Assembly: GCF_000526515.1 (NCBI RefSeq)
Contig: NZ_JAGF01000001.1
Span: forward strand, 2,604,001 to 2,668,000
Source of the DNA: Cellulomonas sp. KRMCY2
GTDB lineage: Bacteria > Actinomycetota > Actinomycetes > Actinomycetales > Cellulomonadaceae
DNA: 64,000 nt
Direction: 5' to 3'
Position 1 is the stretch's first letter. Every line of letters starts with the position of its first letter. Both the position numbers and the translations under genes were made by a program. Under the pieces are notes generated by a model. The model was not told the DNA's origin. It saw only the letters and a list, made by a program, of their open reading frames with translations, and made no database searches. Positions 19,616-41,300 of the stretch are shown here, piece after piece.

Positions 19616-20011
19616 ATGCGCCCGGTTCGGCACGTCTTCCAGCTGTACACGATGGCCGGCGACGACCTCGTGTGGTGGCGGTTCCTCAGCTCCAACGGAC
19701 GCTGCCTCGCACGCTGCCCCGAGCCGCTGGGCTCGGTCGCCGAGGCCAGGGCCGCGATCGCCTCGGCGGTTGCAGCGCTCGACCGGGCGACCGTCGTGGT
19801 ACGACCCGTCTCGGACAACCGCTGGCGATGGACGATGCGGCTCGACGGGACGGTCGTCGCCGTCGGCTCGCCTGACCACGACCGTCGGGTCCGCTGCGAG
19901 CACGCTGCGCACCGCTTCGCCGCCGCTGCCCCGGCTGCGGCGGTCGACCCCATCGTGCACACCTTCCACCGGCGCGCTGCCCCGCGCCGCACCCAGCAGG
20001 CGAGCCGATGA
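19616..20011 (+). CDS. YegP/DUF1508-like small protein leading the pst operon
   Basis: A 131-residue cytosolic protein from ATG 19616 (AGGGACGGGA just upstream). It seems to contain two YegP/DUF1508-type repeats: FQLYTMAGDDLVWWRFLSSNG with LGSVAEARAAI, and RWRWTMRLDGTVVAVGSPDH with a final RCEHAAHRF helix. The family is small and its function unknown. Its stop overlaps pstC as ATGA, so it is made together with the phosphate transporter. The family match is by pattern only. Confidence 0.6.
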   Translation: MRPVRHVFQLYTMAGDDLVWWRFLSSNGRCLARCPEPLGSVAEARAAIASAVAALDRATVVVRPVSDNRWRWTMRLDGTVVAVGSPDHDRRVRCEHAAHRFAAAAPAAAVDPIVHTFHRRAAPRRTQQASR

Positions 20012-21018
20012 CCCTCCTGCGGACGGAGGTGCTCCCGACCGTCCCCGCGGTGCCGCGCAAGCTCGCCACGGCGGCCACCGGCTTCGACCGGGTCTTCGTG
20101 ATCGGTGCCCGTGGCATCGGGGCGACGGTGCTCGCGATCACGGGTGGCATCGGGTTCTTCCTCGCCGTCCAGGCCGTGCCCACCCTGCAGCGGTACGGGT
20201 GGGACTTCTTCACCGAGACCCAGTGGCAGCCCGAGGCCGACGTGCTCGGCATCGCCTCGGTGCTCCTCGGCACCGTGACGGTCGCCCTCGTCGCGATGAC
20301 TGTCGCCTTCCCGCTGGCGCTGGCCACCGCCCTGTACATCAGCGAGTACGCGCCGCTGCGCCTGCGGGGCACGTTCGTCTCGATGGTCGACCTCATGGCG
20401 GCGGTGCCGAGCATCATCTACGGCATCTGGGGCTTCTTCCTCCTTCAGCCGCACGCCAGCGCGATCGCGCGGTGGCTGCACGCGTACCTCGGGTTCCTGC
20501 CCTTCTTCAAGGTGGACACCGACCCGCACGCCGCGGTCTGGGAGCAGACCCGGTACACGGCCTCGGCCTTCGTCGCGGGCCTCGCCGTGGCGATGATGGT
20601 CATGCCGATGGCGTCCGCGGTGATGCGCGAGGTCTTCTCGCAGGCTCCGATGGGCGAACGAGAGGCGGCCCTCGCGCTGGGCTCGACCCGGTGGGGGGTG
20701 ATCCGAGCCGTCGTGCTGCCCTTCGGCAAGGGCGGGGTCATCGGCGGGACGATGCTGGGCCTCGGCCGTGCGCTCGGCGAGACGATCGCCGTCCTCCTGA
20801 TCATCTCGCCGTCCTTCGACCTGAAGCTCCGGCCGCTGGAGATCGGCACCAACACGGTCTCCGCCCTCATCGCCGGCCGGTTCGGCGAGGCGACCGACGC
20901 CCAGCTCTCCGCCCTGCTCACGGCCGGACTCGTCCTGTTCCTGGCCACCTTGGTGGTCAACACGCTCGCCGCGATGGTGGTCGCCCGCAGCCGCTCGGGC
21001 GCCGGGACGGACATCTGA
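20008..21018 (+). CDS. pstC: Phosphate ABC transporter permease PstC
   Basis: A 336-residue inner-membrane permease with six hydrophobic helices after a 30-residue cytosolic start. PstC marks are WDFFTETQWQP, the MVDLMAAVPSIIYGIWGFF loop, the EAA region (MGEREAALALGSTRWGVIRAVVLP) and GLGRALGETIAVLLI. It pairs with PstA to carry phosphate across the membrane. It overlaps genes at both ends by four bases or a shared stop/start, so expression is coupled. Confidence 0.95.
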   Translation: MTLLRTEVLPTVPAVPRKLATAATGFDRVFVIGARGIGATVLAITGGIGFFLAVQAVPTLQRYGWDFFTETQWQPEADVLGIASVLLGTVTVALVAMTVAFPLALATALYISEYAPLRLRGTFVSMVDLMAAVPSIIYGIWGFFLLQPHASAIARWLHAYLGFLPFFKVDTDPHAAVWEQTRYTASAFVAGLAVAMMVMPMASAVMREVFSQAPMGEREAALALGSTRWGVIRAVVLPFGKGGVIGGTMLGLGRALGETIAVLLIISPSFDLKLRPLEIGTNTVSALIAGRFGEATDAQLSALLTAGLVLFLATLVVNTLAAMVVARSRSGAGTDI

Positions 21019-22190
21019 TGCTCGCCACGGATACGCACGCCCCACCGCCGGCCTCGGGAGGCCCTGCACCCGGCCAGGCACTGGCCGCAGGAGGTCGGGC
21101 CCCGGCCACCTGGGTGCGCGATCTCGATGACGCCGGCGGCGGGGGCGCCGCGCCGACCCGGCGTGCCGTGGGTGGTGCGACGGCGCAGGACCGGTTCGTC
21201 GTCGCGGGGTCGCTGGTCGCCGCGGGCGCTCTGGCCTGGGTCGTCTGCTTCCGGCTGCTTCCGTGGGGGACCGTGCCCGCCGTCGTGCTGGTCACCTTCG
21301 TGGTCTTCCTCGCGGTCGTCACGGTGGCCACGTCGGCGACCTCCGACGGGCCGATGGTCGTCGACCGGCTGGCCTCGGCCGTCATCACCGGCGGGGCCGC
21401 CCTGGTCGGGATCGCGCTGGCCTCGACGGTGATCTTCACGTTCCTGCGCGGCGCACCGGCACTGCCCCACCTGAACATGTTCGTCGACGACATGGCCGGC
21501 ATCGGTCCGCGCGACCCGCTCGACACCGGTGGCGTGGCGCACGCGATCGTCGGCTCCCTGATCCAGATCAGCCTCGCGGTCGTGGTCACCGTCCCGCTCG
21601 GCTTCGGCACGGCGGTGTTCATGACCGAGGTCGGCGGACCCTTCGCGCGCGTCGTGCGGACCGTCGTCGAAGCGATGACAGCGCTGCCGTCGATCGTCGC
21701 GGGCCTGTTCGTCTACACCGTGCTCATCGTGACGCTCGGGGTGCCGCGGTCCGGCATCGCGGCGGCCGCAGCGCTCTGCGTGATGATGCTGCCGATCATC
21801 GCCCGGGCGGCCGACGTCGTGCTCCGCGTCGTTCCCAGCGGGCTGCGCGAGGCGAGTCTCGCGCTGGGGGCGTCCCGGTGGCGCACCGTGTGGCACGTCG
21901 TGCTGCCCACCGCCCGGCCGGGGCTCTCGACGGCGCTCATCCTCGGCGTCGCGCGCGGCGTCGGTGAGACGTCACCGGTGCTGCTGACCTCCGGCGCGGC
22001 CTCGTTCTTCGTCGTCGACCCGACCAACGGCGTCATGAACTCCCTGCCCCTGTTCATCTACACGACCGTGCGCAGCGGTGAGCCGCTGTACGTCCAGCGG
22101 GGCTTCGCCGCGGCGACGATCCTGCTCTCCCTCGTCCTGATCCTCTTCGTCACCGCCCGGTGGGTCGCCCGCCCGCGCACCGGTCGATGA
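21018..22190 (+). CDS. pstA: Phosphate ABC transporter permease PstA
   Basis: A 390-residue permease. It has a 50-residue Pro/Gly-rich cytosolic extension, two early helices, then the PstA core: a [15 protein letters not shown] segment, [17 protein letters not shown], the EAA loop ([22 protein letters not shown]) and [18 protein letters not shown] 21018 shares its first base with the last base of the pstC stop. It completes the phosphate channel with PstC. Confidence 0.94.
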
Positions 22191-22219
22191 CCCACCGCCG
22201 ACCAGTCCCTGGAGGACCG

Positions 22220-23929
22220 ATGAACGAGCCGCGCCGGAACCTGCGCCGTGCTGCCGCGATGCTGAGCACAGCCGCGATCCTGCTACTGGTCGGTGTCCAG
22301 GCCCCTGCCTTCGCCGCCTACGGCCAGATCGAGGGCTCCGGCTCGACCTGGAGCCAGGTGATCGTCGACCAGTGGATCGCCGATGTCTCCGCCAACGGGA
22401 TGCAGGTGACCTACAACGGCGGCGGGTCGTCCCAGGGCCGCAAGAACTTCGCCGCGAACGTCACCGACTTCGGCATCTCGGAGATCCCGTACCAGGGCAC
22501 CGACGAGTACGGGAACGCGGACTCGGCGAACGGACGGGAGTTCGCCTACCTGCCGATCGTGGCGGGCGGCACGGCGTTCACCTACCACCTCGAGGCGGCC
22601 GGCGAGCTGGTGCGTGACATCCGGCTCTCCGGCGAGACGATCGCCAAGATCTTCACCAACCAGATCACCACCTGGGCCGACCCGGCGATCAAGGCCGACA
22701 ACAACGGGCGCAGCTTCCCGGACACCCCGATCGTCCCGGTCGTCCGCTCCGACGGGTCGGGCACGACAGCGCAGTTCACGACGTACCTCGACACCCAGTA
22801 CCCGTCGATCTGGCGGGAGTACTTCGGCAAGTCCGGCCTGACGTCCTACTACCCCCAGCCCAGCGGCAGCCGGATGATCGGCGCGGCGGGCTCGGACCAG
22901 GTGATGAACACTGTCGCCTCGGCGGCCGGCAACGGCACGATCGCCTACGTCGAGTACTCCTACCCGGTGAACAAGGGCTACCCGGTGGTCAAGGTGCTCA
23001 ACGCGGCCGGCTACTACGTCGAGCCGACCCAGTACGCGGTCGCGGTGGCCCTGACCACCGCGCAGATCAACACGGATGCGTCGTCACCGGCGTACCTGAC
23101 CCAGATCCTGGACGGGGTCTACGCCAACGCCGATCCGCGGGCCTACCCGTTGTCGTCGTACAGCTACATGCTCCTGCCGACCGGTTCGAGCGACCAGCGC
23201 ATGACGACCAACAAGCGCCAGACCCTGGTGGACTTCATGTTCTACTCGCTGTGCGAGGGGCAGGGGAAGGCCGGGGCGTTCGGCTACTCACCGTTGCCGC
23301 TCAACCTGGTCCAGGCAGGCTTCGAGCAGGTCGCCAAGCTCGGTGCCGCCGACTCGGGGGTCGACATCGCGAACCGGGACGCCACGACGTGCAACAACCC
23401 GACGTTCGTCGCCGGGGACCTCACCCGCAACCGCCTGGCGGAGATCGCTGCGGCCCCGGCGGCCTGCGACCAGCAGGGCGCCGGACCGTGCCTCGGCGCG
23501 GGGCAGGCGGCCGACCCGGGCGGCACGGGGACCGGGACCGGGACGGGGACGGGAACGGGTACCGGGACCGGGACGGGTACCGGAACGGGAACGGGAACGG
23601 GAACGGGTACCGGGACCGGGGCGGGCACGGTCGTCGGGACCGGAGGCACCACCGGGACGGGCGCTGGGGGGTCGGTGACGGGCGGCGGCGCCGCTGCCGC
23701 TGCGGTGATGACCGACCCTGAGACCGGGTTGGTGATCGGCGACCCGTCGACGGGCGCCGGTGGTGAGACAGCGGGTGCGGTGGCCACGGGAGCCGTGGTC
23801 ACCACGATGGCCAGACCCGTCGGCAGCGGTCTCGCCTTTGGCGGCCTGGCCGCAGCCGAGCTGCTGGCGATCATCCTGGTACCCGGCCTGCTCGCTGTGC
23901 GGGCGCGGCGAGCGGCGGTGACGCCGTGA
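22220..23929 (+). CDS. pstS: Membrane-anchored PstS phosphate-binding protein with Gly-Thr repeat linker
   Basis: A 569-residue exported PstS. A Sec signal peptide ends near AFAAYG; no lipobox cysteine is present. The binding domain (about 33-425) has [20 protein letters not shown], the FGISEIPY region, [10 protein letters not shown] and [13 protein letters not shown]. It is followed by a Gly-Thr dipeptide repeat linker of about 16 units (from residue 434) and a C-terminal helix with Arg-rich end ([19 protein letters not shown]). It is thus tethered by its C-terminus, not by lipid as usual. ATG 22220 follows GGAGGACC. Delivers phosphate to PstCA. Confidence 0.9.
23521..23627 (+). repeat. GGGACS-type hexanucleotide repeat coding for Gly-Thr
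   Basis: About 16 imperfect 6-bp units (GGGACC, GGGACG, GGAACG, GGTACC) encode the Gly-Thr linker of the pstS product. A 6-bp unit keeps the frame when copies are gained or lost, so linker length could vary between strains. Confidence 0.85.
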
Positions 23930-26331
23930 ACCTCGCGCGCAGGTTGACCACCCGGCTGCACCGAGCCGCAGCGCTCGGCGGGACGGCGGTGGTCCTGGCG
24001 GTGCTCACCGTCGCCGGTGCGGCGCCCGCGGCGCCGGCCGCCGCTGCGGAGGATGCACCGGAGTACACCGAGACGAAGACGCTCACCCGTGAGCACCTCG
24101 ACGCGGACGGCAGCACCACCGTCGCCGACACCCGGACCGTCACCGTCACCGTCGATCACACCCAGAGCCTGCGGGGGCGCGAGCGCGTCCTGGTGAGCTG
24201 GTCCGGAGCGCGGCCGAGTGCCGCCCGGGCGAACAACCCGTACGGCTACGGGGGGATGAACCAGGAGTACCCCGTCGTGATCCTGCAGTGTCGAGGTCTG
24301 GACGACCCGACGCTGCCCCCGGACGAGCAGCTCCAGCCCGAGACCTGCTGGACGACGACCTACCTGCAGCGCTACTCCGCCGCGGGGAGGTCCGTCGCCG
24401 TCTGGCAGCACGACAGGTATGCCACCGAGGCGGACCGGGGGGCCGTGGACCCGGCCGCCTGGCCCGAGGAGTGCGGCACACAGCTGCCGCCGAGCATCCT
24501 CGCGCAGCACCTCCTGCCGTTCCGGGCAGCCAACGACACCGTCTTCCAGTCGTGCAACGACGCGACCATCGCACCGGAGTCCTCGATCGACGCGGCCCTG
24601 CCACCGGCGGACGTCGCTGCGTTCACGTCCCAGAGCGGCACCGGTGAGGTGCAGTTCGAGGTGCGCACCGAGACCGAGAACGAGTCGCTCGGCTGCTCGG
24701 CGGACGTTCCGTGCTCGATCGTGGTCATCCCGATCATGGGGATCAGCTGCGAGGGCAGCGACGCCCAGTGCCGCAAGGAGAACGCCTTTGCCGCCGGGTC
24801 CACGAACAGCCTGAACGAGACGGTGAATGCGGCGGTCTCGCCGTACTACTGGTGGTCGGAGTCTAACTGGCGCAACCGCTTCAGCGTGCCGCTCACGTTC
24901 TCGCTCCCGCCGGACGCGTGCGACGTGCTGGACGACCGCGCACCGGTCGCGATGTACGGCTCCGAGCTGCTCAACCAGGCCTCGTTGCAGTGGGCGCCCG
25001 CCTACTGCCTGCGCGAGGACCGGTTCAAGTTCCAGCACAACCGCTTCGCCGAGCCCCTCTCGCTGCGACTGCTGGGCACCGGGGAGGCAGTCGCAGCCTT
25101 CGTCTCGGAGCCGGCGGAGTCCACGACCCTTGCCCTCGGCTACGCGCCGGTTGCGGTGAGCGGGTTCGGGGTGGCCTACGTCTCGGACCTCGCGGAGAAC
25201 GCCGGGGAGCTGACGCAGATGCGACTGACCCCGCGGCTGCTCGCCAAGCTGCTCACGCAGTCCTACCCGGCCACGAACCTCGGCCGCGGCCGCGAAGGCC
25301 TCGAGGACAACCCTCTTGTGCTCAGCCGCGATCCGGAGTTCCTCGCGCTCAACCCCACCGTGAAGCAGAACGACCTCGAGGCCATGGCGACGGTGCTGTC
25401 CCTCTCCGAGACCTCCGACGTGATGAGCGCTGTGACGCAGTACATCGCGGCCGACGCCGAGGCGATGGCGTTCATCGGTGGCGAGGCCGACCCGTGGGGC
25501 ATGGTGGTCAATCCCGCCTACCAGGACATCGCGCTGCCTCGCGCGGAGTGGCCCATGCTCGACGGGTACATCCCTGAGATCCCCTCGACCGGGGACGCGT
25601 GCCTGCGGGCGAACCCGGCGCCGTACTTCCAGAAGGTCGCCAGCCCGGTCAACAGCCTGCGCAAGGTCGCGGTGGCGACGCTCGACGCCTGGCCCAACGT
25701 CTCGACGGTGTGCACGGGTGCGGGGACCGCGGCGGTGCCGTTCAAGCTCGGCCGGGTCGCCCGGCAGGACTTCGGCAACCGCAACATGCTCGGCCTGGTC
25801 TCCCTCGGGGACGCCGAGCGGTTCGGCCTGCGGACCGCCGAGCTGCGTACGTCCGGTACCGGCACCGACGCGACCTTCGTCGCGGCGAGCGAGGCGTCGA
25901 TGGCGGCAGCGGTCGAGACCGCCTCCCAGACGGCGGTCGGGGCGCCGTTCACCATCGACCGGGGTGCGCTGCCGGCGACGGCCTACCCGGGCACGATGAT
26001 CGTCCATGCGACCGCACGGCTGACGGACCTGCCCACCGGCGACGCCGGGCACGTCGCGGAGTTCATCCGGATCGCCAGCACGGAGGGGCAGACGCCGGGA
26101 TCGGCCAACGGTGAGCTGCCGGCCGGGTACCTGCCGATCACCGAGTCGGGTGTCACCGCCGAGCTCTTCGCGTCGGCGCAGACGGTCGCCGGGCTGATCG
26201 AGGCGCAGGAGGGGCTACCGCCGGAGCCGACGCCCACGCCGACCCCCACCGCGACGCCCACGGCCACGCCCACGGCCACGCCCACGACGACGCCGTTGCC
26301 GGCCCCCCGCGGACGACGTCCGCTGTGGTGA
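23926..26331 (+). CDS. Large exported PstS-like (periplasmic-binding fold) protein; anchor split off by frame change
   Basis: An 801-residue secreted protein with a Sec signal (cleaved near residue 40) and many cysteines (for example around VILQC, ETCWTT and SCNDA). The middle and end resemble a very diverged phosphate-binding-type domain: [17 protein letters not shown], a LNPTVKQND stretch and a YLPITESG close. The end is a Pro-Thr repeat linker. The frame then ends at RRPLW, but in the next frame the linker goes on into a membrane anchor (see the small ORF at 26328), so a one-base loss in the C-run at 26303-26308 is suspected. GTG 23926 overlaps the pstS stop. Ligand unknown. Confidence 0.75.
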
Positions 26332-26573
26332 CCCCGCGCTCTGCCGCGCCGCTGAGCACCGCGCCCGAGGCGACGGACGGGACGACGACAGCCGAGGGAC
26401 TGCCGGCGCCCTCGCCGGACGAGGTCGCCGCCGCTGCTGCGCCGGGTACCACCCTGGTCCAGAGCTCGACCACCGGACGGCGGATGGTCGCCGGTTCGCT
26501 GGCCGCGGCGCTCGCCGGCATCGTCGGGGCGCCGGCACTGTGGGCCTGGTCGACGCGGCGTCGGGTCCCGTGA
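26328..26573 (+). CDS. Small ORF: Pro/Thr linker plus C-terminal membrane anchor, probably the end of the preceding gene
   Basis: An 81-residue frame beginning GTG 26328 (GTGA overlap). It starts with a low-complexity Thr/Ala/Pro linker and ends with a hydrophobic helix (MVAGSLAAALAGIVGAPALW) and RRR, the same anchor plan as PstS. It has no signal peptide of its own. Read upstream in its frame, it continues smoothly from the C-run at 26303-26308 as a Pro/Thr linker. It is best seen as the displaced C-terminus of the 23926 gene, or a separately translated anchor peptide. Confidence 0.6.
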   Translation: MTPRSAAPLSTAPEATDGTTTAEGLPAPSPDEVAAAAAPGTTLVQSSTTGRRMVAGSLAAALAGIVGAPALWAWSTRRRVP

Positions 26574-27562
26574 GCGTCATCGAGGCGGATCGCGCCGCGC
26601 CTCCGATCAGCCAGTCTGCCGTCGTGGCCGGCCCGGTGCGCGCACCCGAGAGCGGGCGACGCTCCCGACGTCGGGCGGCCCGCCCGGCGCAGCGTCCGCT
26701 CCCGCCTCGTGCGCCCCGACCTGCGATGCCGGAGCGCGTCTCGGTCGTCGTCACCGCGCTCATGCTGGTCGCTGCCCTCGCGTTCTGGTTCCTGCTCCAG
26801 GTCCTCGTGATCGGCGGGCTGGCCCAGTCGCGCGCCCAGAGCGTCCTGCACGCGAACCTGCGTGAGCAGCTGGCCGCCCAGACGGCGCCGACCGGTGGGG
26901 CCATCATCCCCGGCGCCCCGGTGGCCCTGCTCAGCATCCCCACCCTCGGCGTCCGGCAGGTGGTCGTCGAGGGCACCTCCGCCGGAGACCTGATGGGCGG
27001 TCCCGGCCACCGTCGCGACACCGTGCTGCCCGGTCAGGCCGGCATCTCGATCGTCTACGGGCGATCGGCGGCGTACGGCGCACCCTTCCGCACCGTCACC
27101 CAGCTCCGAGCCGGTGACGGCATCACTGTCACCACCGCCCAGGGCGAGCACGTCTACCGGGTGGACCGGGTTCGCCGCGAGGGGGACCCGCTGCCGCCGG
27201 CGCTCGAGATCGGTGCGGGTCGACTCACGCTGGTCACCTCCGAGGGGCAGGGCCCGTTGGCTGCGATCGCTCCTGACCACTCGGTGTATGTCGACGCCAC
27301 CCTCGTCGGCGAGGCCGCGATGGGCCCGGGCGGGCGGCCGGCGGGCGTCCCCGAGGCGGAGAAGGCGTTCGCCGGCGACCCCGGCGTGCTGCCGGTGCTC
27401 GCCCTTGCCCTGCAGGGCCTTCTGATCGCCGTCGCCGGGACCACGCTCGCGCTGCGCCGGCTGCCCGGCCGGGCCGTGTGGGTGATCGCCACCCCCGTGC
27501 TGGTCGCGCTCGCGTGGGTCGCGACGGACGCGGCCGTCCAGCTGCTGCCCAACCTGCTCTGA
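26570..27562 (+). CDS. Sortase-like membrane protein lacking the catalytic residues (pseudo-sortase)
   Basis: A 330-residue protein: Arg/Pro-rich cytosolic start, one membrane helix (about 55-80), a sortase-type barrel (about 105-250), and two further C-terminal helices. The class D/E sortase frame is clear (LSIPTLGVRQVVVEGT, GGPGHRRDTVLPGQ, AAYGAPF, LRAGDGITVTTAQGEHVYRV), but the catalytic His of the VIAGHR motif aligns with Arg (VYGRS), the TLTTC cysteine is Ser (TLVTS), and the late Arg is absent. Transpeptidase activity is therefore unlikely. GTG 26570 overlaps the anchor ORF as GTGA. A scaffold or chaperone role for the anchored proteins is an inference. Confidence 0.75.
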   Translation: MSVIEADRAAPPISQSAVVAGPVRAPESGRRSRRRAARPAQRPLPPRAPRPAMPERVSVVVTALMLVAALAFWFLLQVLVIGGLAQSRAQSVLHANLREQLAAQTAPTGGAIIPGAPVALLSIPTLGVRQVVVEGTSAGDLMGGPGHRRDTVLPGQAGISIVYGRSAAYGAPFRTVTQLRAGDGITVTTAQGEHVYRVDRVRREGDPLPPALEIGAGRLTLVTSEGQGPLAAIAPDHSVYVDATLVGEAAMGPGGRPAGVPEAEKAFAGDPGVLPVLALALQGLLIAVAGTTLALRRLPGRAVWVIATPVLVALAWVATDAAVQLLPNLL

Positions 27563-27604
27563 CCAAGACCTGTGGTCGACCGGGACGTCCTGCGGACCGT
27601 CCGG

Positions 27605-27626
27605 CGCTGTCCCCCGTTCACCCGAA
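27605..27626 (+). promoter_or_regulatory. PHO-box-like motif before the second PstS gene
   Basis: CGCTGTCCCCC followed by GTTCACCCGAA gives two 11-base units like those before pstC's operon. It lies about 90 bases before ATG 27714 in the 151-base gap that starts a new transcription unit. Confidence 0.55.
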
Positions 27627-27713
27627 GAGCGTGGTGGGTTTGCCCGGGCTCGGGATGGTTCCGGCAGATCGGGACACCGGTCTGCAGCCCATGACCACGA
27701 AGGGTTCTCCCCC

Positions 27714-28709
27714 ATGAAGCGATCGAAGGTCTCAGCCCTCCTCACCACTGCCCTCATCGGTGCCCTCGCCGTGTCGCTCGCAGGTCCCGCCGCGGCGGAC
27801 CCGACGCCCCAGCCGAAGGACATCGTCGGAGTCGGCTCTGACACCTCGCAGTTCGCCCTGAACTACCTCGCCGACGGCGTTGTGGCCGGCTCGTTCAACG
27901 CCGGCTACAACGCCGGTGCCAGCGCTCGCCTGGTCTCGTTCGACGCGCTCAAGGCGGACGGCCCGGCCACCATCGTCCTGAAGGCCGGCACGGCCGCCAT
28001 CACCCGGCCGAACGGCTCGGGCTCCGGCAAGGCGCTGCTCTACGGGGCGACCAACAACGTCAACGTCAACTACGCCCGCTCCTCCTCCGGTCCGTCCCCT
28101 GCGGAGAACAGCGCCAACCTGTGGCACGTGCCGTTCGCCGTCGACGGGCTCAAGCTCGCCACGGCGACGACCTCCAACGCTCCGGCGAGCATCACCCCGG
28201 CCCAGATGGTCGACATCTACAAGGGCACCGTCACCAACTGGAACCAGATCGGTGGCGGCAACGGCGTCATCGTCCCGATGATCCCGCAGGCGGGCTCGGG
28301 CACCCGGACCTTCTTCGAGGCCCAGCTCAAGGCCGCCAACGGGAACGTCACGGTCGTGCTGGGCGCATCCGTCGTCGTGACCCAGGAGCACGACGCCGCT
28401 CCGGTCGCCGCTGACCCGAACGCCGTCTCGCCGTTCTCCACCGGCCGTTTCGCTACGGCCACCGGCATCAAGCTCGTCAACGGCGCCGGCAGCTTCACCG
28501 CCCAGCGTGCGCTGTACAACGTGGTCCGCGCCGCGGACCTGACCAAGCCGTGGTTCACCGAGATCTTCGGCGAGAACGGCTTCGTCTGTTCGGGTGGCGC
28601 CGGCACGCTGATCGCCGCCTCCGGCTTCACGCAGCTCGCGACCGGCCTCGACGGTGGCGTGTGCGGCGTCCCGACGCAGGCCGCCACGACCAACTTCACC
28701 ACCCTCTGA
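27714..28709 (+). CDS. Secreted PstS-family phosphate-binding protein, short form
   Basis: A 331-residue PstS-like protein with a Sec signal (cleavage near GPAAADP) and neither lipobox nor C-terminal anchor, so it is free or held by partners. Binding-protein features are IVGVGSDTSQFALN, SFDALKADG, a ITPAQMVDIYKGTVTNWNQIGG hinge segment, the phosphate-loop-like QAGSGTRTFFE and a TQEHDAAPVA stretch. ATG 27714 follows GGGTTCTCCCCC, a weak site. It starts the unit that includes the Ig/WxL-like protein 30 bases downstream. Confidence 0.82.
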   Translation: MKRSKVSALLTTALIGALAVSLAGPAAADPTPQPKDIVGVGSDTSQFALNYLADGVVAGSFNAGYNAGASARLVSFDALKADGPATIVLKAGTAAITRPNGSGSGKALLYGATNNVNVNYARSSSGPSPAENSANLWHVPFAVDGLKLATATTSNAPASITPAQMVDIYKGTVTNWNQIGGGNGVIVPMIPQAGSGTRTFFEAQLKAANGNVTVVLGASVVVTQEHDAAPVAADPNAVSPFSTGRFATATGIKLVNGAGSFTAQRALYNVVRAADLTKPWFTEIFGENGFVCSGGAGTLIAASGFTQLATGLDGGVCGVPTQAATTNFTTL

Positions 28710-28739
28710 CCTGATCTCCGAGACCCGAAAGGTACGTTG

Positions 28740-30428
28740 ATGACTCTCAAGAAGACGCTTGCCGGCTTGCTGGCGACCTCGGTCGTGATGGGTGCGGCGC
28801 TCGTTGCCGTGGCCGGGCCGGCCGCCGCCAACGACGAGGGCACCGAGCTGCCCGGTGCGATCTACTGGTTCGACAACTTCAACCCGCTCGCCCTGCAGTC
28901 GGCCGCGACCCAGATCAGCTCCGGTGCGAACGCACAGACCGGTGGCCCGCTGGCGAACGGACGGCCGTGGGCGACGCTGACCACCGAGAACGCGTGCCCG
29001 GCCGGCACGACCAACATGCAGTCCATCATCCGGATCCCGCAGGTCGGTGTGGCGGAGAACAACTGGGTCCAGGTCCCGGTCGGCGCCACGGCCGTGGCCC
29101 AGGACGCTGACGGTCGCTTCTACACCACGACGGCGAACCAGGCCGACCGTCTGAGCAAGTCCGAGGTCACCAGCTACAACCTGGCCAACGGTGGCACCGG
29201 CACGTACCCGTTCATCTCGGTCTGCCGTGACATCGCGGGGGCATCGCTCGGGTACTTCCGCACGGCCATCACGATCTCCGGCACCACCGCAGCCGACCTC
29301 ACCTGGTCGATCCCGCTGTCGGCGCTGCCCCAGGAGGCCAGCACGACGACCCTCGCGGCCTCGGCCCCGACGATCGAGTTCGGCTCCTCGGTCGACCTCA
29401 CGGCGACGGTGACCCCGTCCGCCGCGACCGGTTCGGTCGAGTTCTTCGCCGGCGCCACCTCGCTCGGCACCGCGGTCGTCGCCTCGGGCGTGGCCACGCT
29501 GTCGACCTCGGCCCTGCCGGTGGGCACCAGCTCGGTGACTGCCCAGTACCTCGGTGGCAGCAACGCGGCCTCGACCTCGGCCGCTGTCTCGATCGAGGTC
29601 ACCCCGGTCGCCGCGCGCTCGACCGTCACGACCCTCGCGGTCACGCCGCTCACCGGTGACGCCAACTCGACGGTCACCTTCACCTCCACGGTGACGGCCT
29701 CGATCGGTGCCCCCAACGGCACGGTCACCTTCAAGGACGGCGCAGCCGTCCTCGGCTCGGTGATCGTCGCCGGTGGCGTCGTCCCGAGCTTCAGCACCAA
29801 CGTCCTCGGGGCCGGCGTCCACTCGCTGGTTGCCGAGTTCGTCGGGACCGGCCCGTACTCGGCCTCGTCCTCTGCTGCGGTCGAGGCGACCTACACCCAG
29901 GCCGGCGCTGTCCCGGATGAGCAGACGGTCACCGTCGACATCCCGGTCGGCACCATCACCATCACCACGCCGTACACCCCGGCCGCGCCGCTCGCCCTGG
30001 GCATCGCCACGCTCGACCCGGCCGACTCGACGTTCTCCGCGTCGAAGCCGTTCAACGAGATCGTCATCACCGACAGCCGCGCCGGGAACCTGGGCTTCAC
30101 CGCCTCGGTGATCTCGGGCGACTTCAAGAAGTCCCCGACCGCCGCGGTCGAGGGCGTCGACAAGTTCGGTGGCCTCTACGCCGGTCTGACCGGCCTGACC
30201 GCCGTCCAGCTGCCGGGCAACGCCCTGCTGGCGACGAACGTCTCGGTCTCCGACCACGTACCGTTCGTCGACGGCCTGGGCACCAAGAAGCCGTTCGCGA
30301 GCTACCCGGCCGGTGCGGCCTACCCGAACGGCTCGGTCCGTCTGGACGGCACCTTCGGTGTCGACCAGATCCCGTCCTCGGTGCAGCCCGGCCTCTACAC
30401 CGCGACGGTGACCTTCACCGCCGTCTGA
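28740..30428 (+). CDS. Secreted Ig-like repeat protein with WxL-like C-terminal domain (copy 1)
   Basis: A 562-residue exported protein. The signal peptide ends near GPAAAND. Residues to about 195 form a domain of unknown family that is repeated without change in the 31915 gene. Two bacterial Ig-like domains (group 3/Big_5 type: SVDLTATVTPSAATGSVEFF and SSTVTFTSTVTASIGAP-like strands) follow to about 395. The end resembles a WxL domain: DIPVGTITIT, IVITDSRAGNLGFTASV and the closing GLYTATVTFTAV strand, with the tryptophans replaced. In Firmicutes WxL domains bind the wall non-covalently and pair with DUF916 proteins; such a gene follows here. Confidence 0.72.
   Translation: MTLKKTLAGLLATSVVMGAALVAVAGPAAANDEGTELPGAIYWFDNFNPLALQSAATQISSGANAQTGGPLANGRPWATLTTENACPAGTTNMQSIIRIPQVGVAENNWVQVPVGATAVAQDADGRFYTTTANQADRLSKSEVTSYNLANGGTGTYPFISVCRDIAGASLGYFRTAITISGTTAADLTWSIPLSALPQEASTTTLAASAPTIEFGSSVDLTATVTPSAATGSVEFFAGATSLGTAVVASGVATLSTSALPVGTSSVTAQYLGGSNAASTSAAVSIEVTPVAARSTVTTLAVTPLTGDANSTVTFTSTVTASIGAPNGTVTFKDGAAVLGSVIVAGGVVPSFSTNVLGAGVHSLVAEFVGTGPYSASSSAAVEATYTQAGAVPDEQTVTVDIPVGTITITTPYTPAAPLALGIATLDPADSTFSASKPFNEIVITDSRAGNLGFTASVISGDFKKSPTAAVEGVDKFGGLYAGLTGLTAVQLPGNALLATNVSVSDHVPFVDGLGTKKPFASYPAGAAYPNGSVRLDGTFGVDQIPSSVQPGLYTATVTFTAV
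28747..29323 (+). repeat. 577-bp direct duplication, copy A
   Basis: Codons 3-195 of the 28740 gene match 31922-32498 base for base in my line-by-line reading. The match starts within codon 3 and stops sharply after CTGTCGGC, where the two genes part into unrelated Ig-type sequence. Confidence 0.93.
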
Positions 30429-30463
30429 CGGTGACCCGACCGGCCGCGGCCGGCAGGTGACCA

Positions 30464-30496
30464 GGGGAGGTGGGGCGCCCAGCGCCCCACCTCCCC
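30464..30496 (+). terminator. Perfect 15-bp hairpin terminator
   Basis: GGGGAGGTGGGGCGC and its exact complement flank a CCA loop, 36 bases after the WxL-like gene stop. No T-run follows, as is common in high-GC actinobacteria. It should end or weaken the transcript from the second PstS unit. Confidence 0.8.
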
Positions 30497-30553
30497 GAAC
30501 CCGTGTCCACCATCCGTCGCCTCGATCCCCGCACCCCAGAGGAAGCCGTCACC

Positions 30554-31738
30554 ATGCCCGACCTCCTGCGCACCGCTGTGGCCGCTGCCGCCCTGACGGC
30601 CACCTTGCTGCTGGCCGCGCCCGCGTCCGCGACGTCGACGCCCGAGCCGAGCGACGGCAGCGCCGACGAGGCCACGGTCACGCCGCAGGACCTCGTCTCC
30701 TTCGGCATCAGTCCCGCGGGGGTGGATCGACCGGACAACCGGCCGTACCTGAGCATGGCGGTCCCGACCGGCGCCGTCGTCTACGAGCACGCGGCGCTCA
30801 TCAACCAGGACGACGCGCCCGTCTCGCTCGACGTCTACGGCACCGACGTCATCATGGCCGACGGGGGCGGCCTGTCCGCCCGGGCCGCTGCCGAGGTCAG
30901 CTCCGACGCCGGGTCGTGGATCTCGATCGTCGGGCCCACCACCCTCGAGGTGCCGGCCCAGACCCCCGACACCGGATTCGGGTACGTGGTCGTCCCGTTC
31001 ACGGTGACCATCCCCGCCGACGCCGAGCCCGGCGACCACATCGGCGGCGTCGTCGCCTCGCTCGTCGGCGTCGGTGCCGGCGGCGAGAACGCACCCAGCA
31101 TCCAGCTCGAGCAGCGGGTCGTGGCCCGGGTCTACATCCGGGTCCAGGGGGAGCTGGACCCGCGGCTCGAGGTCAGCGACGTCGTGGCGACCTGGCTGCC
31201 TGGCGCCGCGTTCGGTGCCGGCTCGATGAGCGTCGACTACACGCTGCGCAACACCGGCAACGTCCGGATGGCCGTGGAGCCCCAGGTCGAGGTCACCGGC
31301 CCGTTCGGCCTGCTGTCGAGCAGCGCCGACGGCGCTCGGGTCGACGAGCTCATGCCCGGCGGCGAGACCCGGATCACCACGGTGGTGCAGGACGTCTGGC
31401 CGCTGCTCCGGGAGACCGTCACCGTCCATGCCACCGCTGTGGCAGGGACGGGCGGCGAGGACCCTGGTGTCGGCACCGTCTCGGCAGCCGTCCAGACCTG
31501 GGCCCTGCCGTGGGTGATCCTCGGGGTCCTTCTCCTCGTCCTCGCCGCACTGGTCCGCCGAGTGCTGCGGGCCCGACGTCGCCAGGCACGCCGCAACCAG
31601 GCGCCCCAGGGTGGGCGCCGCTCGCGGCGCGGCTCCGGAAGGTCGGACGCTCCGGCGCCGGTCGGCGTCGGGTCGGCGGTCGAGGCCGAGCCGCCCGTCC
31701 ACGCGTCGCCGGTCGGCGCCCGGGCCGCACGGCACTGA
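30554..31738 (+). CDS. DUF916 (WxL-interacting-type) single-pass membrane protein 1
   Basis: A 394-residue exported protein with a Sec signal (ending near ASATSTP). The ectodomain follows the DUF916/WxLIP plan: a first domain up to VTIPADAEPGDHIGGVVAS near 170, a QRVVARVYIRVQGEL link, then a second beta-domain with YTLRNTGNVRMAVEPQVEVTGPFG. A membrane helix (ALPWVILGVLLLVLAALV, about 318-335) and an Arg-rich cytosolic tail end the protein. ATG 30554 follows AGAGGAAG. Pairs with the WxL-like product just upstream; in known systems such partners bind WxL domains and peptidoglycan. Confidence 0.75.
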   Translation: MPDLLRTAVAAAALTATLLLAAPASATSTPEPSDGSADEATVTPQDLVSFGISPAGVDRPDNRPYLSMAVPTGAVVYEHAALINQDDAPVSLDVYGTDVIMADGGGLSARAAAEVSSDAGSWISIVGPTTLEVPAQTPDTGFGYVVVPFTVTIPADAEPGDHIGGVVASLVGVGAGGENAPSIQLEQRVVARVYIRVQGELDPRLEVSDVVATWLPGAAFGAGSMSVDYTLRNTGNVRMAVEPQVEVTGPFGLLSSSADGARVDELMPGGETRITTVVQDVWPLLRETVTVHATAVAGTGGEDPGVGTVSAAVQTWALPWVILGVLLLVLAALVRRVLRARRRQARRNQAPQGGRRSRRGSGRSDAPAPVGVGSAVEAEPPVHASPVGARAARH

Positions 31739-31820
31739 CCGGCGGCCGCAGCCGACGGGATCCCCCGCTCGGGCCCGCAGCGCGGCCGGGTGGCCCGCCG
31801 TCATCCCCCGGACGCCCGCC

Positions 31821-31842
31821 GGGTGACAGTCGTTCACCTGAC
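31821..31842 (+). promoter_or_regulatory. PHO-box-like motif before the second WxL-like gene
   Basis: GTTCACCTGAC at 31832-31842 lies about 75 bases before ATG 31915 in a 176-base gap that otherwise shows no coding pattern. The core is the same GTTCACC seen at 16938, 19505 and 27616. Confidence 0.5.
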
Positions 31843-31914
31843 CCGACCATCCTCGAGTCGACGCGATTCCGCCCATCTCGCCACAGATCTCCGTTCCGCG
31901 AAGGGAACAGTTCC

Positions 31915-33312
31915 ATGAGAGTCAAGAAGACGCTTGCCGGCTTGCTGGCGACCTCGGTCGTGATGGGTGCGGCGCTCGTTGCCGTGGCCGGGCCGGCCGC
32001 CGCCAACGACGAGGGCACCGAGCTGCCCGGTGCGATCTACTGGTTCGACAACTTCAACCCGCTCGCCCTGCAGTCGGCCGCGACCCAGATCAGCTCCGGT
32101 GCGAACGCACAGACCGGTGGCCCGCTGGCGAACGGACGGCCGTGGGCGACGCTGACCACCGAGAACGCGTGCCCGGCCGGCACGACCAACATGCAGTCCA
32201 TCATCCGGATCCCGCAGGTCGGTGTGGCGGAGAACAACTGGGTCCAGGTCCCGGTCGGCGCCACGGCCGTGGCCCAGGACGCTGACGGTCGCTTCTACAC
32301 CACGACGGCGAACCAGGCCGACCGTCTGAGCAAGTCCGAGGTCACCAGCTACAACCTGGCCAACGGTGGCACCGGCACGTACCCGTTCATCTCGGTCTGC
32401 CGTGACATCGCGGGGGCATCGCTCGGGTACTTCCGCACGGCCATCACGATCTCCGGCACCACCGCAGCCGACCTCACCTGGTCGATCCCGCTGTCGGCCT
32501 TCGTCGGCGGTGGCGGGGCCGAGGCGGTCGCGACGACCACCACCCTGACCGCCACCACCGCTGGTGCGGACCTCGCCCTGACGGCAACAGTGAGCCCGGC
32601 GGCCGCAGCGGGCCAGGTCACCTTCAAGGAGGGCGCGACAGTGGTCGGGACGGCCACCGTGGCCGGCGGCACGGCGAGCGCGACAGTCACGGCCCCCACC
32701 CAGGGTGACCACACCTACACGGCTGACTTCGTGCCGACCGACCCTGCTGCCTATGGCGCGTCGCAGGGCACCCTCACCGTGACGCTCTCGCTGGACGGCA
32801 CGAGCGGGCAGCTCCTGCTGGACGTGCCGGCCGTACCGGTGGCCGATGGCGCGCTGACCTTCTCGGTGCCGTTCGACACGCCGGTCGCCCTGGCCGGTAC
32901 CCGCGACTCCGCCAACACTCGGGTCGTCGCGAGCGGCGCCTTCCCGACCGTCACCGTGACCGACACCCGTCGCGACGGTCTGCTCTCCGGCTGGGAGGTC
33001 AACGCCCAGGCGTCCGACTTCACCGGCACGGCGGGCACCGTCGGTGCCAAGTACCTCGGCTGGACACCGGCCACGCCGGTCATGACCAAGGACGCCGGCA
33101 GCCCGCTGGTCGCCCAGGCGGGTCCCGCCGTGGCGTCGTTCCTCGACGACGCGGCGAGCGCCGGTCTCGGGGCCAGCTCACTGCTCGGCAAGGCCGCCAC
33201 CGCCGGGCGCGGCGTCAGCGTCCTGGACGCCGGGCTCGCGCTGGCCATCCCGGGCACCACGGCCGAGGGTTCCTACACCTCCGTCGTGACCGTGACGCTG
33301 ATCGGCGGCTGA
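31915..33312 (+). CDS. Secreted Ig-like protein with WxL-like C-terminal domain (copy 2)
   Basis: A 465-residue exported paralogue of the 28740 product. Signal peptide and N-terminal domain (to about 195) are the same at DNA level, but the rest differs: one Ig-like domain (about 203-290), then a WxL-like domain with VTVTDTRRDGLLSGWEVNAQASDF, YLGWTP and the closing GSYTSVVTVTL strand. Here the W-x-V form of the first WxL motif is kept, unlike copy 1. ATG 31915 follows AAGGGAACAG. Followed by its own DUF916 partner gene. Confidence 0.73.
   Translation: MRVKKTLAGLLATSVVMGAALVAVAGPAAANDEGTELPGAIYWFDNFNPLALQSAATQISSGANAQTGGPLANGRPWATLTTENACPAGTTNMQSIIRIPQVGVAENNWVQVPVGATAVAQDADGRFYTTTANQADRLSKSEVTSYNLANGGTGTYPFISVCRDIAGASLGYFRTAITISGTTAADLTWSIPLSAFVGGGGAEAVATTTTLTATTAGADLALTATVSPAAAAGQVTFKEGATVVGTATVAGGTASATVTAPTQGDHTYTADFVPTDPAAYGASQGTLTVTLSLDGTSGQLLLDVPAVPVADGALTFSVPFDTPVALAGTRDSANTRVVASGAFPTVTVTDTRRDGLLSGWEVNAQASDFTGTAGTVGAKYLGWTPATPVMTKDAGSPLVAQAGPAVASFLDDAASAGLGASSLLGKAATAGRGVSVLDAGLALAIPGTTAEGSYTSVVTVTLIGG
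31922..32498 (+). repeat. 577-bp direct duplication, copy B
   Basis: Same sequence as 28747-29323, offset by 3175 bases in the same orientation. Silent sites also agree, which means a very recent duplication or ongoing gene conversion limited to this module. Confidence 0.93.
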
Positions 33313-33390
33313 CGGGTAGCCCGACGGCCGCCCCCGCACCGCACTCGTCGATCACCGCCCTACCGAGAGCCAGGACCGGAGCAACCCCAC

Positions 33391-34932
33391 ATGACCCGTC
33401 AGTTGCAGCGTGCCCTGGGAGCCTCCGTCCTGGCTCTCGGTCTGGCGTGGGGCGCCGTCGTCGGACTACCGACGACGGCGGCCTACGCCGACGACAGCAC
33501 GGCGTCCTGGTCGGCGACGCCGGCCGACGCGAATGGCCTACCCGACGGCCAGACGCGGTACGAGCTCGAGCTGGACGCCGGGCAGTCCGTCGAGCAGCAC
33601 GTCCTGATCACCAACTCCTCGACCGTCGAACGCGAGTTCGCCGTGTACGCCGCGGACGCCTTCAGCACCCCGTCCGGCGGGTACGACGTCTCCCCGGCCG
33701 CCACGCCGCCCACCGAGGTGGGTGCCTGGGTCACACCGGCCGGCCCCACCGTCACGATCGGTCCGCTGGCCACCGCGACGGTCGCCTTCACCGTCGCCGT
33801 TCCCGCCGACGCGACGCCGGGCGACCACCCCGGCGGGATCGTCGTCTCCCCGGTCCGCGCCCAGGTCACCGAGACCGGCGTGGTGGTCGACACCCGGGTG
33901 GCCGTGCGGCTCAACGTGCGGGTTCCCGGCGAGATCATCCCGGCCCTCGAGGTGCGGCGGGTCGGCGGCGACTACGCGCTCGCCGGTGTGCCCTTCGCGT
34001 CCGCGGCCACGACAGTGACCTACGAGGTCGTCAACACCGGCAACGTCAAGGTCAACGGTGTCCCGCGGGTGCGGGTCACCGGCCCGTTCGGCATCGAGCT
34101 GGCGGAGGTCGAGGCCGACGAGACGCGCGAGGTGCTCCCGGGTGACTCGTTCATGGTCACGACGGTGCTCGACAGGGTCGCGCCGGTCGGTGTGGCCACC
34201 GTGGTCGTCGACGTCGCGATGGCTGCGGCGCCGGGCCCGGCCACCGAGATCCCGCTCGTGTCGAGCACGGCGCGGACCACGATGCTGGCGATCTCGTGGA
34301 CCGGGCTGGCGATCGTCCTGCTCGTGGCTGCCGCCGCGTGGCTGCTCGTCCGGCGGATCCGGACCCGTCGTGCGCGCGCCGGGCACTGGGCGACGATGCT
34401 CGACGAGGCCCGGCGGGAAGCGGAGGCCGGTGCCGAGGGTGCGCGCGCTGCGGCGGGCTCGACCGGCTCGGGGCCGGCGGCCCGGGCGCTGGGGGCCGCA
34501 CTGACCCTCGGGGTGACGCTCGCCCTGGGCGTCGGCGGCCTCGTCCTCGGCGCACCGCCCGCACACGCGGACGAGAGCGACGAGGGTGCCCTGTCGCTCA
34601 CCGTTCCCGGGGCGCCGTCGAAGGGCACCACCACCACGACGGGGTCCGGTACCGGCACGACGCCGCGGAGCCGAGGCGCCGCCGGCCCGGCCGGGGTGCC
34701 GACCGAGCCGGGCGCCACGTCGGACGAGCCGGGCGCCGTCCCCGGCGCGGGCGAGGTGACGGCGACCGCGGACGGGCTGCTGCCCGACCTGCTCTGGGCT
34801 CTGCAGTCGCGTCGGTGGTCTCCGGTCCAGTGGACCCTGGTCGGCCTCGGTGGCGCAGGCGCGCTCGCCGGGCTGGGCCTCGTCGGACGCGGCTTCCTGA
34901 TCGGTCGCCGTGGGATGGGAGCAGCATCGTGA
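33391..34932 (+). CDS. DUF916 (WxL-interacting-type) membrane protein 2 with extended C-terminus
   Basis: A 513-residue protein. After a Sec signal (ending near AYADD), the two-part DUF916-type ectodomain includes [19 protein letters not shown] and [25 protein letters not shown] membrane helix (about 300-320) leads to an Arg/Ala-rich cytosolic stretch. Unlike protein 1 it goes on: a second signal-peptide-like hydrophobic segment ending APPAHADE (about 366-393), a Gly/Thr/Pro linker, and a third helix near the C-terminus. The stop overlaps pstB as GTGA. It looks like a DUF916 protein fused to a small anchored exoprotein. Confidence 0.72.
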
Positions 34933-35861
34933 GCGAGTTCACCGCCGGCCCGGCCGGCTACGGGTCCGGTGGTGTGACAGTCGTGCTGCCCCCGGTCGCC
35001 CCGGCCGCCGCAACCTCGAGCGGGTACCTGTCGCACGCCGCCACGACCGCACAGGTCCAGGGACCCCCCGTCATCGCGCCGACCGGTCTGGCCGAGCTGC
35101 AGGCGCGCTCGATCTCGGCGTGGTTCGGCAGCCATCAGGTGCTCGACCGGGTCTCGTTGACGATGCCCGCCGGGCAGGTCACCGCCCTCATCGGACCGTC
35201 CGGCTGCGGCAAGTCGACGTTCCTGCGCATCCTCAACCGGATGCACGAGCTCGTGCCGTCGGCCGCCATGGCCGGCGAGGTGATGCTCGAGGGGCACGAC
35301 ATCTACGAAGCCTCCCGTCGGGTGACCGAGGCGCGTCGGGACATCGGTATGGTCTTCCAGAAGCCCAACCCGTTCCCTGCGATGAGCATCCGTGAGAACG
35401 TGCTGGCCGGCCTCCGGCTCACCGGGGTCAAGGCGTCGAAGGCGACCAAGGACGACCTGGTCGAGGAGTCGCTGATCAAGGCCGGGCTGTGGCGCGAGGT
35501 CAAGGACCGCCTGAGCGCACCCGGTGGCGGCCTGTCCGGGGGGCAGCAGCAGCGGCTGTGCATCGCGCGGTCGCTGGCGGTGCGGCCGAGGGTGCTCCTC
35601 ATGGACGAGCCCTGCTCGGCCCTGGACCCGACGTCGACGCGGGTCATCGAGGACACCATGGCCGAGCTCATGCACGAGGTGACGATCGTCATCGTCACGC
35701 ACAACATGCAGCAGGCCGCCCGGGTCTCCCAGCGGTGCGCGTTCTTCCTCGCCGAGCAGGGCGCACCCGGAGTGATCGTCGAGCACGGCGAGACCGGCTC
35801 GATGTTCACCGCGCCGCGTGACGAGCGGACCGCCGCCTATGTGGCCGGTCGCTTCGGCTGA
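34929..35861 (+). CDS. pstB: Phosphate ABC transporter ATP-binding protein PstB
   Basis: A 310-residue ABC ATPase that powers PstCA. Walker [10 protein letters not shown] (near 88), the PstB-type [13 protein letters not shown]-loop, signature LSGGQQQR, Walker [13 protein letters not shown] and the switch histidine VTHNMQQA are intact. A 55-residue Ala/Pro-rich N-terminal extension precedes the usual fold. It is separated from pstCAS by 12-13 kb of surface-protein genes, yet its GTG overlaps the DUF916 gene stop, so it is expressed with them. No phoU follows. Confidence 0.94.
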
Positions 35862-41271: not shown

Positions 41272-41300
41272 ACGGATGGTGGTCCAGGCGGTTCGGCCGG

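Follow-up and report, generated by a model that had tools for sequence, protein, structure and literature searches.

Why would an actinobacterium carry a second phosphate transport (pst) operon whose genes are interspersed with genes for surface proteins of the WxL and DUF916 types? This question is raised by a locus in Cellulomonas sp. KRMCY2. We analyzed a window of 64,000 nucleotides (positions 2604001-2668000 of contig NZ_JAGF01000001.1, in a genome of 4.5 Mb), and we give positions within that window. The original prediction for this DNA suggested a surface assembly that may present or feed phosphate-binding proteins. On balance, we think that the locus probably encodes an apparatus for phosphate uptake that is induced by phosphate starvation and is anchored in the membrane and, for some species, also in the wall. 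We hold this with modest confidence, and the evidence comes from sequence: the gene set, the folds and families of the proteins, the loss of catalytic and ligand residues, the predicted anchors, the statistics of PHO boxes, and the co-variation of the W and D proteins that are introduced below.

Gene prediction and family scans give a second, divergent pst operon at 20008-35861, all on the + strand. The gene order is pstC-pstA-S1-S2-pseudosortase-S3-W1-D1-W2-D2-pstB, where S1, S2 and S3 are PstS-like, W1 and W2 are WxL-type, and D1 and D2 are WxLIP/DUF916-type proteins. (Ig below is immunoglobulin-like.) The features are:

20008..21018, + strand: pstC-like permease, start of the operon (PF00528, E = 3.3e-11)
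~21114..22190, + strand: pstA-like permease, start approximate (gene prediction; homologue in 84 of the 92 loci described below)
22220..23929, + strand: S1, PstS protein that has the phosphate loop, with a C-terminal membrane helix (PBP_like_2, E = 4.7e-46; TIGR00975, E = 7.5e-57)
23926..26331, + strand: S2, predicted PstS fold plus an extra N-terminal part, without the phosphate loop (structure model and Foldseek)
26325..26573, + strand: out-of-frame continuation of S2 that carries the C-terminal membrane segment (gene prediction and segment analysis)
26570..27562, + strand: pseudosortase, polytopic, with a class-E-like domain (PF04203, E = 1.5e-12)
27616..27622, + strand: PHO-like GTTCACC 5' of S3
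27714..28709, + strand: S3, secreted and PstS-like, without the charged loop residues (PBP_like_2, E = 9.9e-16)
28740..30428, + strand: W1, with a head domain, two Big_3_5 Ig domains, and a C-terminal WxL-type domain (class 1)
28747..29323, + strand: 577-bp block, identical to 31922-32498
30554..31738, + strand: D1, WxLIP/DUF916-type membrane protein (alignment A2; the A2 profile matches EfmWxLIP1 in PDB)
31832..31838, + strand: PHO-like GTTCACC 5' of W2
31915..33312, + strand: W2, with a head domain, one Big_3_5 domain, and a C-terminal WxL-type domain (class 2)
33391..34932, + strand: D2, WxLIP/DUF916-type, with an added C-terminal membrane region (PF06030, 30.2 bits)
34929..35861, + strand: pstB-like ATPase (TIGR00972, E = 3.7e-101)

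The inventory of a pst locus with two W-D pairs between pstS and pstB, as originally predicted, was right, as were the two additional PstS-like proteins (S2 by its modeled fold, S3 by PBP_like_2) and the sortase-like protein (by PF04203). Four things had to be corrected: the operon starts at pstC (20008), S2 is frame-shifted, the genome has another, canonical pst locus, and there are fewer start-stop overlaps than first read. Start-stop overlaps were said to run through to pstB. Only three junctions have them (S1/S2, the S2 tail with the sortase gene, and D2/pstB); the remaining gaps between pstA and pstB are 29-176 nt, and two of the gaps contain a PHO-like GTTCACC.

With a PstB ATPase and PstC and PstA permeases (PstA by homology), the operon belongs to the Pst kind. 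Its PstB is a full-length PstB-type ATPase that scores 337.6 bits with TIGR00972, below the cut-off of 343.2 bits. The canonical operon, at about 692 kb in the same genome, has PstS, PstC, PstA, PstB, a response regulator, a kinase, and PhoU; the two PstC proteins match each other at only 4e-29.

Is this arrangement found in other bacteria? We searched database genomes with an alignment of S2 and kept the best 80 of 313 relatives, which leans the sample towards close relatives. The best 80 include Nocardioides, Aeromicrobium, Cellulomonas, Mumia, Janibacter, and Dactylosporangium, as well as bins titled Frankiales, Nanopelagicales, and Ilumatobacteraceae. Our set of 92 loci comprises the window, 12 loci from its family (L031-L042), and 79 of these 80. 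(L111 was excluded, with no predicted S2 gene of over 400 residues; L030 is the same contig as L088 and was excluded except from the count of the head family; further duplicates between L031-L042 and the 79 database loci are possible.) The homologues counted below (89 for S1, 92 for S2, 92 for S3, and 90 for the pseudosortase) are predicted proteins scoring at least 60 bits, and some loci give two or none.

All seven core genes (pstC, pstA, S1, S2, the pseudosortase gene, S3, and pstB) were found in 69 of the 92 loci, with pstC in 83, pstA in 84, and pstB in 80. Where a core gene was not seen (23 loci), 18 of the loci are cut by the end of a contig or stretch, as judged by eye, and L039, L086, L097, L107, and L109 are not so simply explained. 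The conserved gene order in relatives speaks against a chance association. In this set, 15 of the 92 loci show both W and D. The original prediction staked itself on these genes being conserved with pst in relatives, and this holds for the core but for the W/D pairs only in those 15 loci. We therefore rejected the pairs as the defining feature of the locus, as W and D were not both seen in the other 77; they are optional additions to a core of seven genes that occurs in many actinobacterial families.

Among 296 Actinomycetes genomes, 40 have a strong match to S2 (E < 1e-60). In the window's own family, S2 matches are patchy, at 17 of 101 genomes, and those in G009, G055, and G069 lie only in the proline-rich tail. 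DUF916 is more widespread: among 197 Actinomycetes genomes, 75 have a match at E <= 1e-3 and 49 have a strong match (E < 1e-40). So although WxL-DUF916 pairs do occur inside actinobacterial phosphate loci, as predicted, we discarded the idea that DUF916 in an actinobacterium is a surprise in itself. (More than 91% of known WxL sequences are described as coming from Firmicutes, PMC9772566.) Of 81 places with strong DUF916, just 19 have S2 or the pseudosortase within 12 kb, and 62 do not; a D gene is nearby at 15 of 35 S2 places (with the 197 genomes taken as handles up to G296). Among control genomes, PF06030 also matches in Thermotoga maritima, outside Firmicutes and Actinobacteria.

Which of the three PstS-like proteins would bind phosphate? 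S1 is the predicted one, given its phosphate loop and its alignment with solved PstS proteins in PDB, including 8ods and 2z22. Its score with TIGR00975 is 192.8 bits, below the cut-off of 205. The loop, scored as [DE]G[SA]G[STAV][TSI], is kept in 88 of 89 S1 proteins, 1 of 92 S2 proteins, and 0 of 92 S3 proteins. At the positions of Asp56, Arg135, and Asp137 of E. coli PstS, 69 of the 89 S1 proteins have Glu-Arg-Asp and 14 have Asp-His-Glu; four other combinations occur once each, and two proteins have gaps. The Asp-His-Glu proteins are a lineage, the L100-L123 group, with a coordinated change in the phosphate pocket.

PstS of Gram-positive bacteria is a lipoprotein, and the canonical PstS of this genome has the lipobox LTAC. 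S1 from the locus is not predicted to be a lipoprotein. Of the 89 S1 proteins, 87 have a C-terminal hydrophobic segment and 4 a lipobox-like motif. We also note a long Gly-Thr repeat linker ahead of the membrane helix of S1 (window 23528-23640).

For S2, we found no Pfam family in the window protein, and 1 of 13 aligned members reaches PBP_like_2 (0.0024). Its AlphaFold2 (AF2) model has a predicted local distance difference test score (pLDDT) of 90 and a predicted template-modeling (TM) score (pTM) of 0.87. Foldseek matches this model to PstS structures (1pc3, E = 1.9e-10; 7dm1, TM 0.75 by target length), which predicts a PstS fold for S2 plus a large N-terminal addition. Most S2 proteins (87 of 92) have a hydrophobic segment at the C-terminus. 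In the window, the gene is frame-shifted near 26.3 kb (26200-26580), within a Pro/Thr-rich linker, and most relatives keep the membrane segment in one frame. Sequencing error, phase variation, and decay are not distinguished as causes.

S3 is predicted to be secreted, and only 1 of 92 S3 proteins has a C-terminal hydrophobic segment. At the site of the phosphate loop, 69 of the 92 have PQx[GS][SA]G. S3 is 326-402 residues long in loci with W and D (14 proteins), and elsewhere it has at least 475 residues in 63 of 78; all three of the long S3 proteins that we tested have Big_3_5 Ig repeats. Since S3 is short in loci with W and D and long elsewhere, the W/D module and an Ig tail on S3 seem to substitute for each other. 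The S3 C-termini of L050, L066, L080, and L094 are lysine-rich; such tails might bind anionic wall polymers or polyphosphate. Both extra PstS-like proteins, S2 and S3, thus lack the phosphate loop, and the sortase-like protein is likewise a family member that lacks its catalytic Cys and His.

This last protein has a sortase domain by PF04203 (47.8 bits, above the cut-off of 26.6) and matches the sequences of the solved sortases 4d70, 5go6, and 5cuw. The class E model NF033747 gives 69 bits against a cut-off of 160. Across the 90 homologues, the site of the catalytic Cys has Ala in 63, Ser in 19, Gly in 6, Val in 1, and a gap in 1, so that Cys is kept in none; the site of the catalytic His has Arg in 84, Lys in 3, and His in 3. 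By its sequence, then, this is not an active sortase, and with the catalytic residues replaced, we rejected the idea that it attaches proteins of the locus. Three or four hydrophobic segments are found in 83 of the 90 homologues, and the window protein has two of them after the sortase domain. In the scan of 296 Actinomycetes genomes, a strong pseudosortase (E < 1e-58) was present in 38, of which 37 also have strong S2. Of the 45 places with a pseudosortase, 38 are no more than 12 kb from S2, six are not on the contig that carries S2, and one is in a genome without strong S2 (G115). The pseudosortase is a dedicated part of the S2 system.

Is the locus controlled by phosphate? GTTCACC is described as the conserved PHO-box motif of S. 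coelicolor, in 11-nt repeats (PMC4415409, PMC7866108). In the direction of transcription, GTTCAYC occurs 46 times in 71 regions 5' of pstC, as compared to 3.5 expected, and 24 times in 91 regions 5' of S3, as compared to 2.0 expected. It is also present 5' of W2 in 3 of 10 regions (the window, L032, and L044). The pair GTTC-N7-GTTCA[CT], at 11-nt spacing, has 36 copies in 35 of 85 regions 5' of pstC. (Among the other spacings from 6 to 18 nt, only 7 and 13 gave a copy, one each.) This pair did not occur in a control of 74.4 kb of S2 coding sequence, nor 5' of 664 flanking genes; for 51 of these genes, a single GTTCAYC does occur within 300 nt. The window has four intergenic GTTCACC on the + strand (16938, 19505, 27616, and 31832) as compared to 0.07 expected, and none of 2000 simulations reached four. 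The GTTC-N7-GTTCA[CT] repeat is also found at the canonical pstS of this genome, and the phoU there has two GTTCACC that are 22 nt apart. Through its PHO-box repeats, the locus under study is linked to phosphate starvation, and we predict starvation control across the loci. Because PolR of Microlunatus is described as binding GTTCACnnnnnGTTCaC (PMC6754071), the regulator that responds is not certain.

The pairs had been read as a WxL-type protein followed by a DUF916-type protein, and profile comparisons bear this out. Big_3_5 is found in both W1 and W2. In the window, the WxL family (PF13731) matches only W2 (E = 0.0041; 17.6 bits, versus a cut-off of 25 bits), and W1 has no match. Three of 20 W members match PF13731 at E <= 0.01 (best 1.8e-4), the best of nine that were re-scanned has 21.6 bits, and another genome (G141:C107) has a match over the cut-off, at 26.5 bits, that is flanked by D and S2. 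In a single hhalign comparison, 19 W C-terminal domains aligned to other actinobacterial WxL matches with a probability of 99.2 (E = 1.3e-19); most of these reference matches are over the Pfam cut-off, and five loci beside S2 or the pseudosortase were left out of them. By eye, both W1 and W2 have Asp-x-Arg, and the Trp-x-Leu site reads WEV in W2 and FTA in W1; WTL or WAL is found in L041, L042, L113, and L120, and the second motif is without Trp in 19 of 19 members. By profile homology, the W C-terminus is a degenerate WxL-type domain that falls below the Pfam cut-off. The AF2 model of W2 (mean pLDDT 82, pTM 0.43) has generic Ig-like or beta-domain matches with low TM-scores in Foldseek (best 3lso, E = 8.4e-7, TM 0.17), which leaves the WxL fold undecided. 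The A3 profile matched only a fibronectin-like module among PDB sequences (0.0027).

The partner D2 exceeds the cut-off for PF06030 (DUF916, or PGBD; 30.2 versus 27.3 bits). D1 has no PF06030 match at E <= 1 and is 29% identical to D2 in the alignment. PF06030 matches 10 of the 19 members of the D alignment (A2) at E <= 0.01, and the A2 profile matches EfmWxLIP1 in PDB (9i1y/9i25) at E of about 9e-9, with the match ending at position 182 of 359. DUF3324 (the HBD second domain) was absent among the Pfam matches shown for D proteins. Hydrophobic segments at 307-341 of D1 and 293-325 of D2 are predicted C-terminal transmembrane helices. From these matches, the D proteins are WxLIP/DUF916 relatives. 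By eye, the C-terminal third of D2 resembles a small membrane protein that is encoded separately after D in L041 (17384-18223) and L042 (1200-2075); it looks as if it was fused in the window's lineage.

The two W proteins of the window share a head. The 577 identical bases of W1 and W2 span the signal and head. Across the four loci with two pairs, the heads within a locus are 99.5, 97.6, 82.7, and 83.7% identical, as compared to 55-66% between loci. The WxL-type domains show the reverse, with 67-76% identity within a class between loci and 46-50% between classes within a locus. This implies that the head has been repeatedly homogenized, presumably by gene conversion, while the anchors were kept distinct. 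An assembly artefact was ruled out as the source of the 577-bp identity: L031 is at 97.6% with a 449-bp exact block, and L032 and L044 are at 83-84%. The head family has 52 predicted proteins in the studied loci (two of them in the duplicate L030), and some stand alone. LPxTG-like head proteins are found in L088, L113, and L120; Gram_pos_anchor has 18.5 bits in L120, where the cut-off is 20. Strong head matches are found in 12 of 197 genomes of the class, and 9 of these 12 have S2.

If each W bound its own D, then the two should co-vary. Across 19 W-D pairs (second W proteins without a following D are excluded), the distances among W anchors and among their D partners correlate with r = 0.845, and 0 of 5000 permutations reached this value. 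When D1 and D2 are swapped, in whichever combination of the four loci, r falls to at most 0.57. Common ancestry contributes to the permutation result, and less so to the swap test. This co-variation is what cognate binding of W to D predicts.

Two neighboring genes bear on what the locus might do:

16990..17808, + strand: SLT lytic transglycosylase-like protein (u272; PF13406, E = 3.8e-9)
17805..19481, + strand: Ser/Thr protein kinase with PASTA repeats (PF00069, E = 2e-35; PASTA, E = 1.2e-16)

A member of the SLT family is near the core in 35 of the 74 loci that have both pstC and pstB, and it is directly beside pstC or pstB in 29. Relatives labeled pknB adjoin pstC in L031, L032, L044, L098, and L112. 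On the other side, 3' of pstB (36029-41789), the window has a large adenylation-carrier-hexapeptide protein, which we take to be Pls-like, an M1 peptidase, and, on the opposite strand, a 4'-phosphopantetheinyl transferase.

We propose that phosphate starvation would lead to building of the complex, in which S2, S3, and the pseudosortase would form a scaffold over PstCA. This scaffold would be fixed to peptidoglycan by the W/D pairs or, where a locus has none, by the Ig tail of S3, and the neighboring lytic transglycosylase might open the wall and make room for the complex. Phosphate at the surface would then pass to S1 and on to PstCAB. A stronger form of this proposal is tentative, and we consider it possible: a wall-spanning uptake machine, in which an ATP-binding cassette (ABC) transporter is roofed by the pseudosortase and two loop-less scaffolds of PstS fold. 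Its peptidoglycan anchors would be interchangeable, namely the Ig tail of S3, cognate WxL-WxLIP pairs with a shared gene-converted head, or LPxTG-anchored heads.

Several observations weigh against a starvation-induced uptake apparatus of this kind. S2 was found in 0 of 7 other genomes sampled from the same genus, so the locus is dispensable. The apparatus does not need W and D, since 77 of the 92 loci did not show both (in L098 and L112, the contig ends at a W gene). Three of the 40 genomes with S2 lack a strong pseudosortase (G167, G169, and G329), and contact of the pseudosortase with S2 and S3 is proposed from the linkage of their genes. The position of E. coli Asp56 is Glu in 70 of 89 S1 proteins, so the affinity of S1 or the identity of its ligand could differ. 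As to regulation, GTTCAYC is present in 0 of 13 W1 regions; boxes 5' of S3 are mostly single, with the 11-nt pair in 2 of 93 regions; SLT genes have a box in 5 of 40 cases and the pair in 0 of 40; and the four intergenic GTTCACC of the window are all single, none with a perfect partner at 11-nt spacing.

The Glu at the Asp56 position, together with the Asp-His-Glu trio, also favors another explanation, that the transporter imports some other phosphorus compound, such as a phosphoester, polyphosphate, or a fragment of a wall polymer, and that the extra binding-protein-like and Ig/WxL proteins bind the polymer. The missing phosphate loop of S2 and S3, the canonical pst that the genome already has, and the lysine-rich S3 tails in some of the six loci that we inspected would fit as well. 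We consider this rather unlikely: the loop of S1 is nearly always kept, and its sequence matches in PDB are PstS proteins that bind phosphate.

It is less likely still that the complex is a phosphate sensor, which would report external phosphate, for example via the adjacent PASTA kinase, instead of importing it. Two loop-less proteins of the binding-protein fold and a dead sortase do resemble signaling or scaffold parts, and the kinase is 5' of pstC in the window and in the five loci mentioned above. However, the kinase label is found in few loci, PstB is a full-length ATPase of the PstB type, and pstC, pstA, and pstB travel with the core.

We give little credence to an adhesin or a structure for contact with hosts or plants that is incidentally responsive to phosphate, with the WxL/WxLIP pairs acting as in the Csc clusters of Firmicutes: WxL/WxLIP clusters are described as surface complexes that bind peptidoglycan and host (PMC10599100, PMC9772566), and Ig repeats and LPxTG-like heads are present here, but W and D were not both seen in 77 of the 92 loci, and these loci, judged by their record titles, are spread over many genera and metagenome bins and do not point to a single host niche. 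Just as improbable is that the W/D pairs came into the operon as passengers with no relation to it, which their accessory distribution and the frequency of DUF916 elsewhere in the class would allow: the pairs come after S3 where S3 is seen and before pstB where pstB ends the operon, GTTCACC is directly 5' of W2 in the window, L032, and L044, and the strong head domain, in 12 of 197 genomes, mostly accompanies S2.

How does the locus compare to known systems? Like Pst (PstSCAB), it has PstC, PstA, PstB, a loop-bearing PstS, and PHO boxes 5' of the genes. It is of the Pst kind and departs from it in anchoring, as its PstS has a C-terminal helix and no lipobox; in the two extra proteins of PstS fold; and in the dedicated pseudosortase. 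It also adds Ig, WxL-type, and WxLIP modules, and it coexists with a canonical Pst in the window's genome. The pseudosortase is like class E sortases in its domain and in its match to solved sortases, and differs by the replaced Cys and His, the extra hydrophobic segments after the domain, and the linkage of its gene to pst.

The Csc/WxL clusters of Firmicutes are described as DUF916, small WxL, and large WxL proteins, often with an LPxTG protein (PMC1534035, PMC9772566, PMC10599100), and have been proposed to form surface complexes for sugar use or host contact (PMC1534035, PMC10599100). As in those clusters, DUF916 membrane proteins adjoin large, Ig-bearing WxL-type proteins in our locus. 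In contrast, the WxL motifs are degenerate, each WxL-type protein of the window has its own WxLIP, the head domain is shared, and the locus is linked to a phosphate transporter and PHO boxes. The window has two large W and two DUF916 proteins, with no small WxL protein recognized; small LPxTG-like proteins are found only in relatives (L088, L113, and L120). Another actinobacterial case is plasmid pCCh of Clavibacter phaseoli (L154, 1-7000), where sugar ABC transporter genes, a GH43 gene, a hypothetical gene, and a gene for a DUF916 protein are in a row. This too is a WxLIP-type protein (PF06030, 35 bits) near ABC uptake genes, but the stretch is annotated for sugars and no PstS-like protein is listed in it. 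Being beside a sugar transporter and GH43, the pCCh protein fits a general role of such modules next to uptake systems. Among the matches listed in the literature that we searched, which excludes subscription journals and preprints, none is a prior description of the locus.

The passage of nutrients through the thick Gram-positive wall to transporters in the membrane is poorly explained, and this locus offers a regulated and widespread set of genes for it. Its sortase, conserved but inactive by sequence, seems to have a new role, and its WxL/WxLIP proteins have a likely job outside of host contact. One head that is kept alike on two cognate wall anchors is a natural experiment on how such complexes are built. 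If the wall-spanning machine that we consider possible is real, it would be a Gram-positive counterpart of the nutrient receptors of the outer membrane.

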